Shown: piece by piece, positions 2,261 to 64,000 of the stretch
Numbering within the stretch: position 1 is the stretch's first letter
Layout: the number at the start of each line of letters is the position of its first letter
Assembly: GCA_021790195.1 (NCBI GenBank)
Contig: JAJYIF010000005.1
Location: 1-64,000, forward strand
Length of the DNA: 64,000 bases
Direction: 5' to 3'
Source: Nitrospirota bacterium
GTDB taxonomy: Bacteria > Nitrospirota > Thermodesulfovibrionia > Thermodesulfovibrionales > UBA9159
Notes under the pieces: model-generated
What the model was told of the DNA's origin: nothing
The model's database searches: none
Seen by the model: only the letters and a program-made list of their open reading frames with translations
Made by a program: the position numbers and the translations under genes

Positions 2261-4543
2261 ATGAAGAACTTACGTCATGCCTTACGCTTATTCCATATAG
2301 CATTTGTTTCCCTCATTGCGCTCACCTGTCTTTCTGCCTGCGGAGATTCCGGCGCATCGCAGAAACCGACTGAACGTGTGACAGCGCGGATGCTTGTACA
2401 ACCGAACGCGCTGATGGGACCGGGACCTTCGGGGTTCTGCTGGAGTCCCAAGGGGGCTGTATTGGCTTACGTCGGGCCGAACAATGGGAAGGACGTGTTA
2501 TGGACTTACAACGCGACAAGCGGCGTAAGGCGGGTACTGTTCGATCCCGGCGACAACCCTGACCAGATAACGCTCTCATCCGCGCAGTGGTCGCCCCAAG
2601 GGGATTTGATCCTGCTATCCGGCGCAAGCGCGCTCTGGCTGCTCGATGTCAAGACAGGGGGAATTAGGTCTCTGGCCTCCGGAAGCGCCAAGACCGGCCT
2701 CATGTTTTCGCCGGACGGAACGCGTATTTCATTTGTGCAGGATAACGATCTCTATACGGTCCGCATAAGCGACGGACAGCTTGCGCGCCTAACAACGGAC
2801 GGAGGCGACACTGTCTTTAACGGAGCACTGGATTGGGTGTACAATGAGGAGTTGGCGACGCGCTCGGCCCAGCCTGCCTACGCCTGGTCGCCTGACGGCA
2901 AGTGGCTGATCTACCTGCGCCTGGATGAATCCGCTGTCCAGAATCATCCCGTCACGAACTATAGCACTACTCCTCCGACAGTCACCTATACGCGCTATCC
3001 GGTGGCGGGCAGCCCCAATCCGAAGGCCTCGGTAAACCTGATCGACATGACTACCGGCAATCTCAGCTCAATTCCCTTGTCAGGGGATGTTGAATACGTT
3101 ATGCCTTTCATCAGCTGGACTCCTGATTCGAAAGAAGCGCTCTTTGTCACGGAGAACCGCGCCCATTCCATTCTGAGGCTCATGGGGTGGAATCCCGTCA
3201 CAGGGGCCGGAAGGACCATCATCACCGAAACTGATCCTTATTGGATCAACGAGAATTCGTATGCCTCGCCGATATTTCTGGGTAACGGCGACCAGTTCCT
3301 CTGGCTCTCCGAGCGCGACGGCTACATGCACCTTTACCTTTACTCGATAGATGGAACCTTGCTGAAGCAGGTTACAAAAGGCGAATGGATGATCGACTCG
3401 CCGGCCTGGAACCTCCTCGTGCCGGGACATCCGGTATACACAGACCCTGCCGGCAAATATGCATATTTCTCCTGCACGAAGAACAGCCCGCTGGAGCGGC
3501 AGATCTACCGTGTGGAAATCGCCGGCGGCAACCTGGAGCAGGTGTCCCAGCAGGCGGGGTTCCATTTTGGCGCATTGTCCGGGGACGGCCAGTATCTGGT
3601 TGATCAGTTCTCCGATGTCTCGACTCCGCCGGTGACATGGATTGTCAAAGGCGACGGGACCAGGGTGGGCGTGCTGGGACAATGCTCAGGTCCCGCAATT
3701 GCGCTGCCTCAGGTCAAGCGCGAATTCCTGACTATCAAGGCCCATGACGGGACGGACCTTTATGCGCAGATCGTCAAACCGGAGAATTTCGACCCCTCGC
3801 GAAAATATCCGGTGATAATTCACTGGTATGGCGGCCCCACTCTGCAGTTGGTGTCGAACCGATATGGGGCCACAAACATCTTTAATCATATCGAGCGGGA
3901 TGTCCTCTACACACAGGAAGGCTTCATTGTGTGGAGGCTTGATAACCGCGGCAGCTTCGGTCGCGGTCATGCCTTCGAAACGCCTATTTACAAGGAATTC
4001 GGCAGGGATGCGCTCGACGATCAGATGGCCGGAGTTGAGTATTTGCGGACACTCCCTTATGTTGATGCGACACGGATCGGAACTGACGGCAAATCTTTCG
4101 GGGGATTCCTGACACTGTATGCGCTTATCCATGCACCCGAGGTCTTCAAGTTCGGCGTGGACGGGTCCGGCCCGACCGACTGGTCCACTTACGACACTAT
4201 TTACACGGAGCGCTACATGCAAACGCCGTCCCAGAACCCTGAGGGTTATGCCGCCACTAACCTGATCGCAGTGGCCGATCAGCTTAAGTCGCCTCCGCTG
4301 ATAATACACGGTCTGGCGGATACTAACGTCCACCTGGAGAATTCGATCAATTTCATACAGGCGCTTGAGCAGTACGACAAGCCGTATTACTTCATCCCGC
4401 TGCCGAACGAAGATCATCACTACGAGGGGGACGGCTTGGCCACTGCTCTGCAAGCGAGTGTGGACTATTTCGTGCAGCATATGGGGAGGGGCGACAATGA
4501 GGACCTTAACGGGAAGGGAGTCTCTAATGAACATCTTCTTTAG
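2261..4543 (+). CDS. Dipeptidyl-peptidase IV-type serine peptidase (S9B), lipoprotein
   Basis: Predicted exported S9-family peptidase, 760 residues. The chosen ATG gives a lipoprotein signal peptide with lipobox LSAC (Cys27); a longer reading 60 bases upstream would bury this signal. The first ~480 residues form the DPPIV_N beta-propeller and include DWVYNEEL, equivalent to the double-Glu motif that binds the substrate N-terminus in DPP-IV. The alpha/beta-hydrolase domain carries the nucleophile Ser612 in GKSFGG, Asp687 in GLADTNV and His719 in NEDHH. The complete triad plus double Glu supports true X-Pro or similar dipeptidase activity in the periplasm or at the cell surface. It starts 16 bases after the receiver gene. 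Confidence 0.9.
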   Translation: MKNLRHALRLFHIAFVSLIALTCLSACGDSGASQKPTERVTARMLVQPNALMGPGPSGFCWSPKGAVLAYVGPNNGKDVLWTYNATSGVRRVLFDPGDNPDQITLSSAQWSPQGDLILLSGASALWLLDVKTGGIRSLASGSAKTGLMFSPDGTRISFVQDNDLYTVRISDGQLARLTTDGGDTVFNGALDWVYNEELATRSAQPAYAWSPDGKWLIYLRLDESAVQNHPVTNYSTTPPTVTYTRYPVAGSPNPKASVNLIDMTTGNLSSIPLSGDVEYVMPFISWTPDSKEALFVTENRAHSILRLMGWNPVTGAGRTIITETDPYWINENSYASPIFLGNGDQFLWLSERDGYMHLYLYSIDGTLLKQVTKGEWMIDSPAWNLLVPGHPVYTDPAGKYAYFSCTKNSPLERQIYRVEIAGGNLEQVSQQAGFHFGALSGDGQYLVDQFSDVSTPPVTWIVKGDGTRVGVLGQCSGPAIALPQVKREFLTIKAHDGTDLYAQIVKPENFDPSRKYPVIIHWYGGPTLQLVSNRYGATNIFNHIERDVLYTQEGFIVWRLDNRGSFGRGHAFETPIYKEFGRDALDDQMAGVEYLRTLPYVDATRIGTDGKSFGGFLTLYALIHAPEVFKFGVDGSGPTDWSTYDTIYTERYMQTPSQNPEGYAATNLIAVADQLKSPPLIIHGLADTNVHLENSINFIQALEQYDKPYYFIPLPNEDHHYEGDGLATALQASVDYFVQHMGRGDNEDLNGKGVSNEHLL

Positions 4544-55530: not shown

Positions 55531-57045
55531 ATGATTGAAAATCGGAGCATTCCTGTATCCTTGTCGTTGGCAGCTCTGTTTGTCATGATCGGATTGGTAA
55601 TAATAGAGTGTCCGGCATATGCTGCAGGGGTGGTAAATACATGCGACGAAACCAACCTGACAACCGCGATTGCAGGAGGCGGGGGCGGAGGTTCCGTGAC
55701 GTTTACCTGCAGTGGCACGATTACGCTTACCTCGAGGATCACAATTTCAAAGGACACGACCATTGACGGCACGGGCCAAAATGTTACCATCAGCGGCAAC
55801 AATTCCGTGCCTGTCTTTCTGGTAAATTCCGGGGTTAATGCGACTCTCAACAGTCTGACAATTACAAACGGCAACGCCGGCGGCGACGGCGGCGGAATCA
55901 TGAACTTCGGCACACTGACAGTGACCAACAGCACCATCTCAGGAAACTCTGCTTTTGGCAACATCGGCGGCGGCGGAATCTACAACAGCGGCACACTGAC
56001 ACTGACCAGCAGCACCATCTCAGGAAACTCTGCCAGTATCATCGGCGGCGGCGGCGGAATCGCAAACGATGGCACGCTGACAGTGACCAACAGCACCATC
56101 TCAGGAAACTCTGCCAGCAACGCCGGCATCGGCGGCGGCGGCGGAATCTTTAATAACGGCACGCTGACAGTGACCAACAGCACTATCTCAGGAAACTCTG
56201 CCTTAATCGGCGGCGGAATCTTAAACTCCGGTATTTTAAATTATACAAATACGATCATCGCCAACGCCCCTTCAGATGATTGCGTAAATATTAACGGATC
56301 CATCGGCACCCATACCAATAATCTCGTGCAAGACGGCACTTGTTCCGCCTCCTTAAGCGGTGACCCCAAGCTCTCGACGCTCGGCAGTTACGGGGGGCCT
56401 ACCCATACCATTGCGCTTCTGCCGGGGTCCCCTGCTATAGATGCAGGCAATGATTCAACATGCGCAGCATTTGATCAACGCGGCGTTGCCCGGCCTCAGG
56501 GCCTCCATTGCGACATAGGAGCGTATGAATTAATCCCGCCGGTTACTGTTGCATCGGCCACCGGTAAGGGGGTTATAACACTTACGCCGGTCACCGCAGG
56601 CTGCTGGCTCTCGGATGTTCAGGCAATGGCTACTTCTCAGGCATATATGGCCGATCCTTTAAACTATAACTACCCCTACGGGCTTGTGTACTTCAAGCTG
56701 CACTGCCCGACACCCGGCCAATCTGCTGATGTAACAATCACGTTCCCCGGAGACATTTCAGGCATGGAGTACAGGAAATGCGGCCCTACGCCACCCGACT
56801 TTAATACCGTAAGTTGGTATACCTACAGTAGTGTGACCGTGAACGGCAATGCCGTCACGCTGCATCTTAAAGACGGAGCACTTGGAGACGACACGGCGGC
56901 TGACGGGATTATCGTGGACGAGGGCGGGCCGGGGGATCCTCCGACGACCGCGATACCCACCATGAACGAATGGGGGATGATTGTATTTATGGTTTCCGCA
57001 GGATTATGCGCTGTATATTTTCTGAGGAGAAAGAGAAAAGTTTAG
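55531..57045 (+). CDS. Beta-helix surface protein with choice-of-anchor domains and IPTL-CTERM tail
   Basis: Exported surface protein, 504 residues. Signal peptide ~1-32. Residues ~35-245 form a right-handed beta-helix built of turns such as TLTVTNSTISGNSA with GGGGI linkers; four near-identical repeats (24-29 residues) occupy 127-233. Next comes the choice-of-anchor Q signature (GSPAIDAGNDSTCAAFDQRG, then HCDIGAYE), then a choice-of-anchor U-type domain (GLVYFKLHCPTPGQSADVTI; ADGIIVDEGGPGD). The tail is IPTMNEWGMIVFMV, a hydrophobic helix and RRKRKV: an IPTL-CTERM sorting signal. No sorting peptidase is in the window. Adhesion or extracellular matrix binding is the likely role. Confidence 0.85.
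   Translation: MIENRSIPVSLSLAALFVMIGLVIIECPAYAAGVVNTCDETNLTTAIAGGGGGGSVTFTCSGTITLTSRITISKDTTIDGTGQNVTISGNNSVPVFLVNSGVNATLNSLTITNGNAGGDGGGIMNFGTLTVTNSTISGNSAFGNIGGGGIYNSGTLTLTSSTISGNSASIIGGGGGIANDGTLTVTNSTISGNSASNAGIGGGGGIFNNGTLTVTNSTISGNSALIGGGILNSGILNYTNTIIANAPSDDCVNINGSIGTHTNNLVQDGTCSASLSGDPKLSTLGSYGGPTHTIALLPGSPAIDAGNDSTCAAFDQRGVARPQGLHCDIGAYELIPPVTVASATGKGVITLTPVTAGCWLSDVQAMATSQAYMADPLNYNYPYGLVYFKLHCPTPGQSADVTITFPGDISGMEYRKCGPTPPDFNTVSWYTYSSVTVNGNAVTLHLKDGALGDDTAADGIIVDEGGPGDPPTTAIPTMNEWGMIVFMVSAGLCAVYFLRRKRKV
55909..56229 (+). repeat. Four in-frame tandem repeats with variable GGC runs
   Basis: Each unit begins GGCAC(A/G)CTGACAGTGACC and contains AACAGCACCATCTCAGGAAA followed by a run of GGC triplets (3-5 Gly codons) and AATC. 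Units are about 81, 81, 87 and 72 bases. The DNA identity between units is high, higher than needed for the protein fold, so recent duplication or gene conversion is likely. Confidence 0.85.
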
Positions 57046-59603: not shown

Positions 59604-62600
59604 ATGATTTTCATAGGTCTCGATGCAGGCTCTGTCAGCGTTAAGCTTGTTGTTCTGGACAGGAGCGGCAAGAAGCTCGAAGGCCATTACACGCGGCATA
59701 GAGGTCATCCGCAAAAGACGGCGCTGGAGCTCCTTGAGATGGCGACAAGAGCGGCCGGCGGACCTTTTCACCTCTCCATTACCGGATCTTCAGGCAGGCT
59801 TATGGCCTCGGCCCTCGGTCTCGGTTTTACTAACGAGGTCGTGGCGCAGAGTTATGCCGCGAGGAAACTCTATCCCGAAATAAAAACAATAATTGAGCTC
59901 GGCGGCGAGGATTCGAAGCTGATAGCGCTCGGCGGGAACGGACTCAAGGATTTCGCGATGAACTCGGTCTGCGCCGCCGGCACCGGCTCGTTCCTCGACC
60001 AGCAGGCTGAAAGACTGAAACTCTCGATCGAGGAGTTCAGCGAACTCGCTCGAAAATCGAAGCCCTCAAGGATCGCGGGCCGGTGCAGCGTTTTTGCGAA
60101 GTCCGACATGATCCACCTCCAGCAGATAGCGACCCCTGTGGAAGACATCGTTGCCGGGCTCTGTTTCGCGGTCGCAAGGAATTTCAAAGGCTCTATCGTC
60201 AGGGGACGGACCATCGAGGAGCCGGTCTCCTTTCATGGGGGAGTAGCCGCCAACAAGGGGATGGTCAGGGCCTTCAGGGAAGTCTTCGGTTTCGACAGGT
60301 TCTTTGTGCCCGAGGACTTTGCCCTGATGGGGGCGCTCGGCGCGGCCTTTAAGGACATGGACGAGGGTGCCGAAAACATCCTTGAGCCGAAGAAGCTGGC
60401 GACGCTTACGCAATCATCCGGTTATTCGGAGTACGGCCATAAGCCGCTTATAGTCGAAGGAGACGAATTTCTTGAGAGACACATCAAAGACAGTATAGAG
60501 TCCAAGGTTCAAGGCTCAAGTGCGGATAAGGACTCAGGGGGACAAGACACAAGGCCCATGACCCGCGCTTTTTTGGGCATCGACATAGGCTCTATAAGCA
60601 CGAACCTCGCGGTCATCGACGAGGACAGCAACCTGCTCGCAAAGAGATACCTGATGACCGCCGGGAGGCCGATTGAGGCCGTCAACCAGGGGCTCAGGGA
60701 AATAGGCGAGGAGATAGGCGACAGGATAGAGATAGCCGGCGTCGGGACAACAGGGTCCGGCAGATATATGATAGCGGATTATGTGGGCGCCGACATAGTG
60801 AAGAACGAAATCACGGCGCAGGCCACGGCTGCGGCGTTCATCGACGGGAACGTAGACACAATCTTCGAAATCGGCGGCCAGGACTCCAAGTACATTTCCC
60901 TGCGGGACGGAGTTATTGTGGATTTCGAGATGAACAAGGCCTGCGCCGCGGGGACAGGCTCCTTTCTCGAAGAGCAGGCCGAAAAACTGAACATCTCGAT
61001 AAAGAAAGACTTCGCCGAATGCGCCTTTTCCTCCGGAAACCCCTGCAGGCTGGGAGAACGCTGCACTGTCTTCATGGAGAACTCGCTCATGGCAAACCTC
61101 CAGAAGGGCGCGGACAAGAACGACCTCCTTGCAGGTCTTGCCTATTCGATAGTGCAGAACTACATCAACAAGGTGGTCGCCGGAAAGCCCATAGGCCGGA
61201 ATATATTCTTCCAGGGCGGAGTAGCTTTCAATAAATCTGTTGTTGCCGCCTTCGAAAAATATCTTGACAGAAAGATAACCGTACCGCCCAATCATGATGT
61301 GACCGGCGCGATAGGAATGGCGCTTATTGCAATGAGACACGTAAAGAATGAAGTAACGGAGTATCGGGGTAATGGGGTGTCGGAGCATGGAAACGCTGCT
61401 TCACACCGTAACGCCGCAACACCGACGCCCCATTACACAAAGTTCAAGGGTTTCGAGTTGTCCAGGCGCTCTTACCAAATCACGTCCTTCGAATGCAAGG
61501 GATGCCCGAACGTGTGCGAGATCAACAGGGTGAAGATAGAGGGAGAAAACGGCAATCTCTTTTACGGAGGCAGGTGTGAGAAATATGACGTTAGGCAAGG
61601 GAAAGGTCCTTCTCCGTTCCCGGACCTGTTCGCTTACCGCGAGGAAGCGCTCTGGAAGGAACACCTCAAGAGACAATCCGCAGTCACCGGTCAGGAGTCA
61701 ATAATCCGGGGAAATGCATCCCATGACCTGGGAGAAAGAATCGCAGAAAACCGACTGTCGACTGCGGACAGCCGACCCAGAATAGGCGTCCCTTATATAT
61801 TCTTCTTCCATGACTACCTCCCCTTCTGGACAACGCTTTTATGGGAAATGGGGTTTGAGGTAGAGGTATCTCCCAAGACTAACAGGGAGATCATAAATAT
61901 CGGGTCTGAGAGCGTCCTTGCCGATACCTGTTTTCCGATAAAGGTCGCTTACGGCCACATAAAATATCTCGTTGACAAGGGCGTCGATACCCTCCTCATT
62001 CCAAGCTTTGTGAATATGAATACGGCCGATGAGGAATTCGAAAGGGGATATGCCTGCCCGCTCACCCAGACAATCCCCTATGCGGCGAGGGTGGCGCATC
62101 CGAAGGCGAGAATCATTGCTCCTGTAGTAAACCTCCGGGAAGGCAAGTCGGGGACCAACAAGCTTGCGGAAGAGATCGCGCGTTCCTTCAGGCCGCTTGG
62201 AATAAGGAAGAGCGTCGTTCTCAAGGCGCTGAAGGAGACGGAAAAGGCCCAGAGAGAATTTGCGACTTCCATCAAAGCCAGGGGGGCCGAGATACTGTCC
62301 TCTATTCGTGAGAAGACCGCTGTAATTATTGGGAGACCGTACAACGCCTTCGAAGCCGGGATGAACCTCAATATACCCAGAAAGCTGTCGGACCTCGGGG
62401 TCTTTGCGGTGCCCATGGATTTTCTTCCTTCCGCCGGACTCAAGATAGACGACAAGTGGCCGAATATGTACTGGAGGTCCGGACAGAGAATACTAAAGTC
62501 GGCTCGTCTCATAAGGGAGCATCCTCACCTCTACGCTATTTTTATCGGTAATTTCTCGTGCGGGCCCGATTCCTTCATCCTCAAATACTTTAAGGAGGAG

Positions 62601-64000
62601 ATGAAGGACAAGCCTTTCCTGCAGATCGAGATAGACGAGCACAGCGCGGATGCCGGCGCCATTACAAGGTGTGAGGCGTTCCTCGACAGCATTGGACAAC
62701 AGCGCGAAAGCCGTGACGAGTTATCCGTAATGAGTAATGAGTCAAAAGATGAGAAAGGGCCCAACGCCACATCATGCATTGCAGACCGCGGACCATATTC
62801 TCCGGGCTCGCCACGCGTCGCGCGTTGCACATCACTCAAGAAGAGGACCGTGTACATACCGAGGATGGCCGAGCAAGCCTTTGCCATCGCCGCCGCCTTT
62901 GAAAGGTGCGGCGTTCCTGCGGAGGTGCTTCCGGAATCGACCAAGGACTCGGTCGATATCGGAAGGAGATATGTTACAGGCAAGGAATGTTATCCCTGCG
63001 CCGTGACCACCGGCGACATGCTGAAGAAGGCCCTTTCGCCGGGTTTCGATCCCGCCAAGTCGGCCTTTTTCATGCCTTCTGGCACGGGGCCGTGCCGCTT
63101 CGGGCAGTACAATGTCTTCCACCGTATGGTCCTCGACGATATCGGGCACGACCAGGTGCCGATCTTTTCACCTAACCAGGACACAAACTTCTACAGGGAA
63201 CTCGGCATTGTCGGAAGGGACCTCTCGGCCTTTGCGTGGAAAGGCATCATCGCTTACGGACTCCTGGTCAAAAGTCTTCATGAGACAAGGCCCTATGAAG
63301 AAGAGAAAGGAAAGGCCGACAGATTGTATCACAAATACCTGAACAGGCTTTACACCTCTCTGAGAGGCGCTGACGGAAGCGTCGAGGCGGTCTTGCGGGA
63401 CATGAGGAGAGATTTTGAGACCGTTCCGAGGCATGGGGGGAAGAAGCCGCTTATCGGGCTTGTAGGAGAGATCTTCGTGCGCAGCCACCGCTTTTCTAAT
63501 GAGGACCTCGTCAAGAAGGTAGAGGCGCTCGGAGGAGAGGTCTGGCTCGCCCCCCTGGAAGAATGGATCTACTACGTTAATGAGATGTCGGTCAGAAAAG
63601 CCTTGATTAATAAGGAGCGGTCTGCTATCATTGAGATTCTTCTGAAGAGATTCTTTCAGAGACGGATAGAGCACAAGTACTGCAGGTATTTCACAGGTTT
63701 TCTGAAGACCTTGAAAGAGCCTGAGACAAAAGAGACCTTGAAAAAGGCGTCTCCCTATCTGCACGATTCGTTCGAAGGAGAGGCGATCCTCAGCATCGGG
63801 AAGAGCATCGATTTCATCGAAAGGGGCGTTTCCGGCATTATCAACGCTATGCCTTTCGGGTGCATGCCCGGCACCGTCGTCACGACATTAATGCACGGTC
63901 TGAGCAGGGATTACGGAATTCCCTGCATAAGCATCCCGTACGACGGCACCGAATCGCCGACAACGGAGATTCAGCTTGAGGCGTTCATGAATCAGGCGGC
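59604..64000 (+). CDS. Giant acyl-CoA dehydratase activase-type protein (two ASKHA domains + DUF2229 + dehydratase-like part), truncated at right edge
   Basis: An open frame of at least 1,465 codons with no stop before the window ends. Domain 1 (residues ~1-265): GLDAGSVSVKLVV, IELGGEDSKL and CAAGTGSFLDQQAERL. Domain 2 (~317-585): GIDIGSISTNLAV, FEIGGQDSKYI and CAAGTGSFLEEQAEKL. Both are BadF/HgdC-like ATPases that bind a bridging [4Fe-4S]. Then comes a DUF2229-type region (CKGCPNVCEI; CFPIKVAYGH; NFSCGPDSF) and a C-terminal part with GKECYPCAVTTGD, GTGPCRFGQ and PFGCMPGTVV. Such fusions energise electrons for 2-hydroxyacyl-CoA dehydratases or similar radical reactions. CGGAGAAC precedes the ATG. 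The linkers are unusually low in family character (see findings). Confidence 0.9.
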   Translation, partial: MIFIGLDAGSVSVKLVVLDRSGKKLEGHYTRHRGHPQKTALELLEMATRAAGGPFHLSITGSSGRLMASALGLGFTNEVVAQSYAARKLYPEIKTIIELGGEDSKLIALGGNGLKDFAMNSVCAAGTGSFLDQQAERLKLSIEEFSELARKSKPSRIAGRCSVFAKSDMIHLQQIATPVEDIVAGLCFAVARNFKGSIVRGRTIEEPVSFHGGVAANKGMVRAFREVFGFDRFFVPEDFALMGALGAAFKDMDEGAENILEPKKLATLTQSSGYSEYGHKPLIVEGDEFLERHIKDSIESKVQGSSADKDSGGQDTRPMTRAFLGIDIGSISTNLAVIDEDSNLLAKRYLMTAGRPIEAVNQGLREIGEEIGDRIEIAGVGTTGSGRYMIADYVGADIVKNEITAQATAAAFIDGNVDTIFEIGGQDSKYISLRDGVIVDFEMNKACAAGTGSFLEEQAEKLNISIKKDFAECAFSSGNPCRLGERCTVFMENSLMANLQKGADKNDLLAGLAYSIVQNYINKVVAGKPIGRNIFFQGGVAFNKSVVAAFEKYLDRKITVPPNHDVTGAIGMALIAMRHVKNEVTEYRGNGVSEHGNAASHRNAATPTPHYTKFKGFELSRRSYQITSFECKGCPNVCEINRVKIEGENGNLFYGGRCEKYDVRQGKGPSPFPDLFAYREEALWKEHLKRQSAVTGQESIIRGNASHDLGERIAENRLSTADSRPRIGVPYIFFFHDYLPFWTTLLWEMGFEVEVSPKTNREIINIGSESVLADTCFPIKVAYGHIKYLVDKGVDTLLIPSFVNMNTADEEFERGYACPLTQTIPYAARVAHPKARIIAPVVNLREGKSGTNKLAEEIARSFRPLGIRKSVVLKALKETEKAQREFATSIKARGAEILSSIREKTAVIIGRPYNAFEAGMNLNIPRKLSDLGVFAVPMDFLPSAGLKIDDKWPNMYWRSGQRILKSARLIREHPHLYAIFIGNFSCGPDSFILKYFKEEMKDKPFLQIEIDEHSADAGAITRCEAFLDSIGQQRESRDELSVMSNESKDEKGPNATSCIADRGPYSPGSPRVARCTSLKKRTVYIPRMAEQAFAIAAAFERCGVPAEVLPESTKDSVDIGRRYVTGKECYPCAVTTGDMLKKALSPGFDPAKSAFFMPSGTGPCRFGQYNVFHRMVLDDIGHDQVPIFSPNQDTNFYRELGIVGRDLSAFAWKGIIAYGLLVKSLHETRPYEEEKGKADRLYHKYLNRLYTSLRGADGSVEAVLRDMRRDFETVPRHGGKKPLIGLVGEIFVRSHRFSNEDLVKKVEALGGEVWLAPLEEWIYYVNEMSVRKALINKERSAIIEILLKRFFQRRIEHKYCRYFTGFLKTLKEPETKETLKKASPYLHDSFEGEAILSIGKSIDFIERGVSGIINAMPFGCMPGTVVTTLMHGLSRDYGIPCISIPYDGTESPTTEIQLEAFMNQA
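61369..61436. repeat. Inverted repeat inside the activase coding sequence
   Basis: GTAATGGGGTGTCGG and CCGACGCCCCATTAC (15 bases, one mismatch) face each other across 38 bases. The whole unit is translated in frame as an interdomain linker between the second ASKHA domain and the Cys-rich DUF2229 region. The amino-acid sequence (GNGVSEHGNAASHRNAATPT) has no family resemblance. Confidence 0.7.

Follow-up and report, generated by a model that had tools for sequence, protein, structure and literature searches.

The window analysed here, a 64,000-nt stretch of a genome from the Nitrospirota, a largely uncultured bacterial group, ends within a giant gene resembling those of acyl-CoA dehydratase activases. 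The frame at 59604-63998 is uninterrupted across repeats in four interdomain linkers, which we call A to D, and the copy of the gene at L001 spans 1494 codons from stop to stop. The protein carries two acyl-CoA dehydratase activase domains and a DUF2229 domain (Pfam). BcrAD_BadFG matches two stretches with 244.7 bits against a curated cut-off of 31.5, and CoA_E_activ matches two stretches with 306.4 bits against a cut-off of 125.4; an HGD-D-like match scores under its curated cut-off. The bounds of linker A in the following list are our own choice.

59604..63998, + strand: giant acyl-CoA dehydratase activase-like gene, continuing beyond the window end
60483..60566, + strand: linker A, between the two activase domains, with a 7-nt array (CAAGGTT) at 60503-60520 seen in alignments and by lag-7 matching (p 0.001)
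60573..61331, + strand: second BcrAD_BadFG activase domain, residues 324-576 (Pfam); 1hux and 4eht are among the solved structures related to the activase domains
61344..61436, + strand: linker B, in which an 8-nt array at 61353-61383 faces a complementary arm at 61422-61436
61665..61778, + strand: linker C, with a left arm at 61677-61692 and a right 7-nt array at 61752-61771
61779..62423, + strand: DUF2229 domain, residues 726-940 (Pfam)
62694..62837, + strand: linker D, with a left array at 62725-62741 and a possible degenerate right arm (hairpin p 0.07 only)

Elsewhere in the window, 81/168-bp tandem repeats lie at 55881-56216, within a 504-aa ORF (55531-57045).

The original prediction, made from the sequence alone, was that repeat-like DNA had entered four stretches between the conserved blocks of this protein without disturbing the frame. 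Such DNA is present in all four linkers, in frame and beyond what codon shuffles produce, as imperfect tandem arrays with units of 7 nt in A, C, and D and of 8 nt in B. Against 1000 codon shuffles, the lag-7 match was 15/21 in A (p 0.001), 14/21 in C (p 0.004), and 15/21 in D (p 0.001), and the lag-8 match of 16/21 in B was reached in none; when the best of lags 4-12 was allowed, the corresponding values were 0.006 for A, 0 for B, 0.041 for C, and 0.004 for D. The three repeat sequences singled out in the prediction each occur once within the window, at 60503-60520, 61752-61771, and 62725-62741. A predicted inverted repeat at 61369-61436 is real, in that 61369-61383 and 61422-61436 form arms that are 93% complementary, but the other linkers are built mainly from period-7 arrays. 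In a hairpin test with 300 codon shuffles, no shuffle reached the value of linker B, and p was 0.013 for C, 0.07 for D, and 0.35 for A; within this genome the inverted repeat is clear in B, weaker in C, marginal in D, and absent in A. At the stricter cut-off applied to homologues below (16/21), only B passes among the window's four linkers. The window's own linker copies are decayed, and clear ones are found in relatives.

The same four segments stand out in AlphaFold2 models, in which pLDDT falls below 50 over at least 7 residues at 305-313, 586-616, 704-725, and 1043-1077, the stretch in linker C being 704-725 in the first model, which ends there, and 712-721 in the second. Shorter stretches below 50 occur at residues 124-126, 272-275, and 665-670. 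On these models, all four linkers are predicted to be disordered.

Homologue matches were found in 57 of the 61 genomes searched, some of them partial or paralogous. In a 30-row alignment, stretches of at least 4 residues filled in <60% of rows fall only in the four linkers. The arrays of relatives are clearer at the DNA level, with 7-nt units such as CAGCAGT, GAGTTAA, GCGTAAT, ATTCAAA, CCAAACT, and CATCACG and the 8-nt units GCGCTTCC and TTCACCCA. Pooled lag-7 identity was 0.339 in linkers versus 0.242 in the rest of the gene, and matches of at least 16/21 occurred in 27/120 linkers versus 5/1103 control pieces at lag 7 and in 8/120 versus 1/1103 at lag 8.

The homologue set was then enlarged by 80 named loci, taken from among the matches listed. 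Sequences long enough for alignment numbered 103 of 110; the seven excluded as short comprised six that reach contig ends according to the locus tables and one that is frameshifted. Removal of six identical duplicates left 97 genes (73 in-group and 24 outgroup), and it preceded the hairpin z, tree, array-pair, linker-versus-rest density, and arm-match counts. At the 16/21 cut-off, 28/73 in-group genes carried a linker array (72/292 linkers) and 45/73 did not, and none was found in the 24 outgroup genes (0/96 linkers), which are mostly from Deltaproteobacteria by title. Across the 97 genes there were 87 arrays per 32,046 linker nt versus 11 per 384,675 nt elsewhere in the gene. Outgroup linkers measure 27–30 nt for B, 36–51 nt for C, and mostly 78–84 nt for D. 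The proposal that repeats lengthen the linkers in frame was to be judged by alignment with homologues, and it agrees with the 24 outgroup genes, which lack arrays in these segments and whose linkers are mostly shorter. Long linkers without an array also exist (219 nt in D of L095, 171 nt in A of L115). Among the aligned homologues, no distant species carried identical linker sequences, the observation that would have counted against the prediction.

Several linkers have further features of their own. Linker A of L118 repeats itself in tandem every 84 nt, with 77% identity at this lag, and heptamer arrays lie inside the copies. In linker B of L089 and linkers A, B, and C of L074, the repeat arms enclose a CCCCCC...GGGGGG palindrome that keeps the frame and is similar to the intrastrand triplex motifs described in the available text of PMC4666352.

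Assembly error or chance low complexity could in principle mimic such a pattern, since most of the relatives are metagenome bins and repeats assemble poorly. However, the pattern also appears in the single-contig genome G017 and in independent assemblies, and lags other than 7 and 8 are nearly empty, although a looser filter gave 17 arrays at lag 9 beside 128 at lag 7 and 31 at lag 8 (the zero counts at lags 5 and 6 in that set follow from the construction of the low-complexity filter and were not used as controls). The sole frameshift among the excluded homologues, in the metagenome bin L110, is a frame change near activase residues 239-275, just upstream of linker A and thus outside it. We regard an artefact as very improbable.

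Repeats at the linkers turn over between relatives. On a tree of the 97 rows (1263 columns, linkers excluded), arrays are present in 18 rows at A, 21 at B, 17 at C, and 16 at D, with minimum numbers of changes of 13, 13, 8, and 7, respectively. The L105 and L106 genes are 96% identical in DNA (a second divergent patch, at gene positions 3360-3660, is unrelated to any linker); A, C, and D are nearly unchanged between them and only B has different units, GCGTTAT/ATCACGC in one gene and ACAAGTT/CTCTGAA in the other. Between L013 and L073 (90% identical), A, C, and D differ and B is unchanged, and between L077 and L113 (89% identical), A, B, and part of D differ and C is nearly unchanged. Among the homologues compared, no pair of one filled and one empty linker was close enough to reveal an insertion footprint.

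The divergent stretch of linker B in L105 and L106, the only pair inspected in this respect, extends past the array into some of the flank, and a preformed linker could therefore have arrived by recombination. On a broader version of this idea, linkers would be exchanged between lineages as recombination patches, with the repeats as passengers. This seems rather unlikely to us as the general explanation: arms from different linkers of one gene match each other better than they match arms from other species (mean 9.5 versus 6.75), and the unit types recur elsewhere in the same genomes.

Copies outside the gene were sought with a 99-position profile built from 27 linker copies, which represents one dialect and picks up copies of the GAGTTAA/GCGTAAT type. 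Its best match outside the activase gene reached an E of 3.6e-16; within the window, it matched nothing outside that gene. The original prediction had suggested a search of intergenic DNA for the repeats, and the same kinds do occur in tRNA spacers of this genome and within further enzymes that it encodes. Five spacers between adjacent tRNA genes of the window's own genome are taken up entirely by element copies:

L211, near 1500: between tRNA-Lys and tRNA-Glu
L218, near 1500: between tRNA-Arg and tRNA-Lys
L068:291-369: between tRNA-Thr and tRNA-Gly
L068:448-548: between tRNA-Gly and tRNA-Tyr
L054:2266-2364: between tRNA-Pro and tRNA-Arg

The profile matches outside the gene and the copy at L211, whose ends match each other (AAGACCGT and ACGGTCTTTG), are what one would expect of a true mobile element family of the MITE or RPE kind, in which a transposase moves copies that have ends resembling TAAAGRCMGT and that leave target duplications. 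Against this, the motif at the termini carries little information, with no position above 0.39 bits and AAAG or TAAA in 19/69 arms, and many elements are made of other units. A first, looser pattern scan for terminal repeats was discarded, and the stricter scan for terminal inverted repeats left only a weak A-rich terminal box. A mobile family of this kind is, in our judgement, unlikely. In Rfam searches of five loci with E up to 0.1, no match covered the tested element copies; tRNAs and cobalamin riboswitches reached gathering scores, and two matches were sub-threshold.

Elements also lie within the ORFs of unrelated conserved proteins. A pattern of the D type, with up to 2 mismatches, occurs at 11 places in the window's own genome, one of them the activase gene, versus 2 for the reversed control. 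The A unit is found exactly in the D-Ala-D-Ala ligase (Ddl) of this genome and, as an exact match, only there; with up to 3 mismatches its pattern has 6 places in the whole genome and the reversed control also has 6. AAAGTTC arrays related to the A unit also lie in a KdsB-like enzyme and in the N-terminal part of an ATP synthase b subunit ORF; given these equal counts, what supports them is their own lag-7 periodicity. The affected Ddl loop holds more than four but fewer than five GGTTCAA units in G000 and, in the family member G001, about four GCGTTAC units at the same place. In KdsB the units vary among relatives; an insertion there was considered and rejected, the loop being about as long as in solved relatives. 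Other genomes have in-frame elements in an aminotransferase, in a TrpE-like protein, where the element separates the two Pfam domains, and in QueC, of which 268 residues align with 209 profile positions. An exact three-unit GMGTRATG pattern was present in 38/176 genomes of the order and in 33/295 sampled across the phylum, some of the latter belonging to the order as well. In a sample of G017, 17/20 lag-7 arrays lie in long ORFs, which by crude gene calls cover 91% of that sample. Two other loci may be mentioned here. At L193:2929-3021, an element overlaps a D-alanyl-D-alanine carboxypeptidase ORF (Peptidase_S11) in its N-terminal part, which looks like a signal peptide; around 3712-3775 of L255 (contig 10 of G008), a GGGATGACAAAG-type repeat recurs in tandem about every 21 nt.

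Array density, measured like polarity on genome stretches, rises with the number of occupied linkers across nine genomes (rho 0.91, p 6e-4), although these genomes are related and were picked with knowledge of their linkers. Flanking DNA contained 14.25 arrays per 100 kb at the 17 named loci with linker arrays versus 0.47 at 27 in-group loci without. Outgroup flanks held 4.0 arrays per 100 kb, yet 0/96 outgroup linkers were occupied; thus, load alone does not predict occupancy.

A full copy consists of two arrays face to face with a short spacer between them. When hairpin strength was compared with 60 codon shuffles, linkers shorter than 30 nt after trimming being excluded, array-bearing linkers had a mean z of 4.1 and 43/72 matched or exceeded all shuffles, versus 0.5 in other in-group linkers (15/183) and 0.5 in the outgroup (6/66). 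Within a gene, an arm matches its own partner better than it matches arms from the other linkers (35 higher and 12 lower, n=49, p 6.5e-4). In a sample of 1.63 Mb from five genomes, 58/130 arrays had a complementary partner scoring at least 9 no more than 120 nt away, where the control rate was 4.5% per side. Those with a strong partner on one side only were merged into 34 elements, 32 of which come from three genomes, and the purine-rich arm came first in 32 of the 34 and second in 2. Read from either strand, this order has the purine-rich arm pointing inward. GC skew gave the same polarity in 26 merged elements and the opposite in 3, with 5 unskewed, and chance inverted repeats, the control, divided 69 to 51; an unmerged count of 37 to 5 includes both arms of some elements, and we prefer the merged counts. 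In a partly overlapping set of loci, the 29 neighbouring array pairs comprised 17 facing inward, 0 outward, 6 in the same direction, and 6 unclear.

This architecture bears on growth in place, whereby replication slippage, often favouring 7-nt units in bacteria, would expand short seeds in weakly constrained loops with no insertion at all. Heptanucleotide repeats outnumber other long simple repeats in most genomes, according to earlier work as cited in PMC4679880, and arrays in a single direction do exist, such as the roughly 30 units in linker B of L082. Slippage alone nevertheless leaves the facing arrays, the better match of arms to their own partners, and the purine-rich-first order unexplained, and we consider it possible but somewhat unlikely as the sole origin.

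Taken together, our results probably reflect a model in which the four linkers serve as landing pads for a genome-wide load of paired 7- and 8-nt repeats that turn over and are filtered for frame. These Nitrospirota, several named relatives of which are titled Thermodesulfovibrionales, carry short elements made of two facing 7- or 8-nt tandem arrays with a short spacer, which would arise or insert at many places in the genome, insertion or template switching making both arms together. Stop-free inserts with a length divisible by three would be tolerated in the four disordered interdomain linkers of the activase, and the same filter on frame and stop codons would leave elements elsewhere in linkers, loops, and termini. 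Units would then be replaced and decay, so that relatives come to hold different repeats at the same sites. The facing arms and their polarity suggest insertion rather than growth in place, although growth in place or recombination may contribute. Selection would act only on the frame and the absence of stops, and the repeat itself would have no function.

A more speculative possibility, which we think improbable, is that the elements form a class defined by format, as scars of end-directed repeat synthesis at healed breaks: 7–8-nt G-rich repeats would be added, telomere-like, to both 3' ends of a broken chromosome, and the two tails would then be joined. Repair insertions of telomere repeats are known in animals, and the polarity seen here is what two end-added G-rich tails would leave. 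Such healing would explain the facing arms, the inward G-rich or purine-rich strand, and the related but non-identical arm units, as well as the many unit dialects per genome and the sudden swaps at break-tolerant loops. If so, past breaks and their healing would be recorded in the tRNA spacers and the activase linkers.

On the landing-pad model, the activase gene amounts to a replicated natural experiment on the recruitment of non-coding repeats into protein, with four sites in one gene filled by different repeats in many species, even though 7- and 8-nt units should break the frame. The rate at which genomic repeats are recruited as disordered linkers becomes testable, as does the origin of bacterial heptameric arrays, for which the papers so far, in their available text, give only proposals. 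For annotators, this is a warning not to read ELRVMSYEL, ITHHASR, and similar strings in conserved proteins as motifs, since they are translated repeats.

Heptamer arrays, in-frame palindromic elements, and repeat-made disorder are each already known, as far as the available text of the relevant papers goes (PMC4679880, PMC4692102, PMC10969869, PMC9879509). In one library of open-access papers, we found no listing of facing heptamer arrays in the linkers of conserved proteins, which does not prove absence; the combination absent from the papers found is that of non-triplet units, paired with polarity, that differ at the same enzyme linkers among close relatives. In cyanobacteria, Xanthomonas, and Beggiatoaceae, heptameric simple repeats with tandem 7-nt units are described between genes and inside some ORFs, with inverted copies noted in both papers (PMC4679880, PMC4692102). 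The arrays reported here likewise have tandem 7-nt units above chance, and 8-nt units too, but whereas those accounts place the repeats mostly in intergenic DNA or at ORF ends, ours include arrays inside conserved enzymes that are paired and polar and differ at the same linker between sister genes. The tandem repeats of Borgs, as presented in the available parts of PMC9879509, also evolve fast, lie in ORFs, and form disordered segments; their ORF units are all divisible by three and nearly all perfect, whereas those here are of 7 or 8 nt, imperfect, two-armed, and in chromosomal enzymes. Enterobacterial RU repeats are similar in being intergenic and MITE-like and also translated within genes, but their units are 103, 127, and 168 bp long, and the abstract of PMC2759123 mentions no tandem-array format.

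A further close parallel is the one drawn in the original prediction, with the palindromic elements of Rickettsia. In the text available to us, RPEs form families of related sequence, about 150 bp long and with a conserved peptide, and they too appear as short in-frame repeats in unrelated metabolic genes that the protein tolerates (PMC10969869). The analogy holds for in-frame repeats in the coding DNA of unrelated conserved proteins (the activase linkers, Ddl, QueC, the TrpE-like protein, and the aminotransferase) but not for a single palindromic family: units vary by linker and species and differ between sister genes, arms match poorly across species, and only the format of facing 7/8-nt arrays is common, even though one repeat dialect does yield a searchable profile. 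The elements of Nitrospirota, recurrent at fixed linkers, work like Rickettsia palindromic elements without being members of that family, as they have no fixed sequence and belong to another clade.
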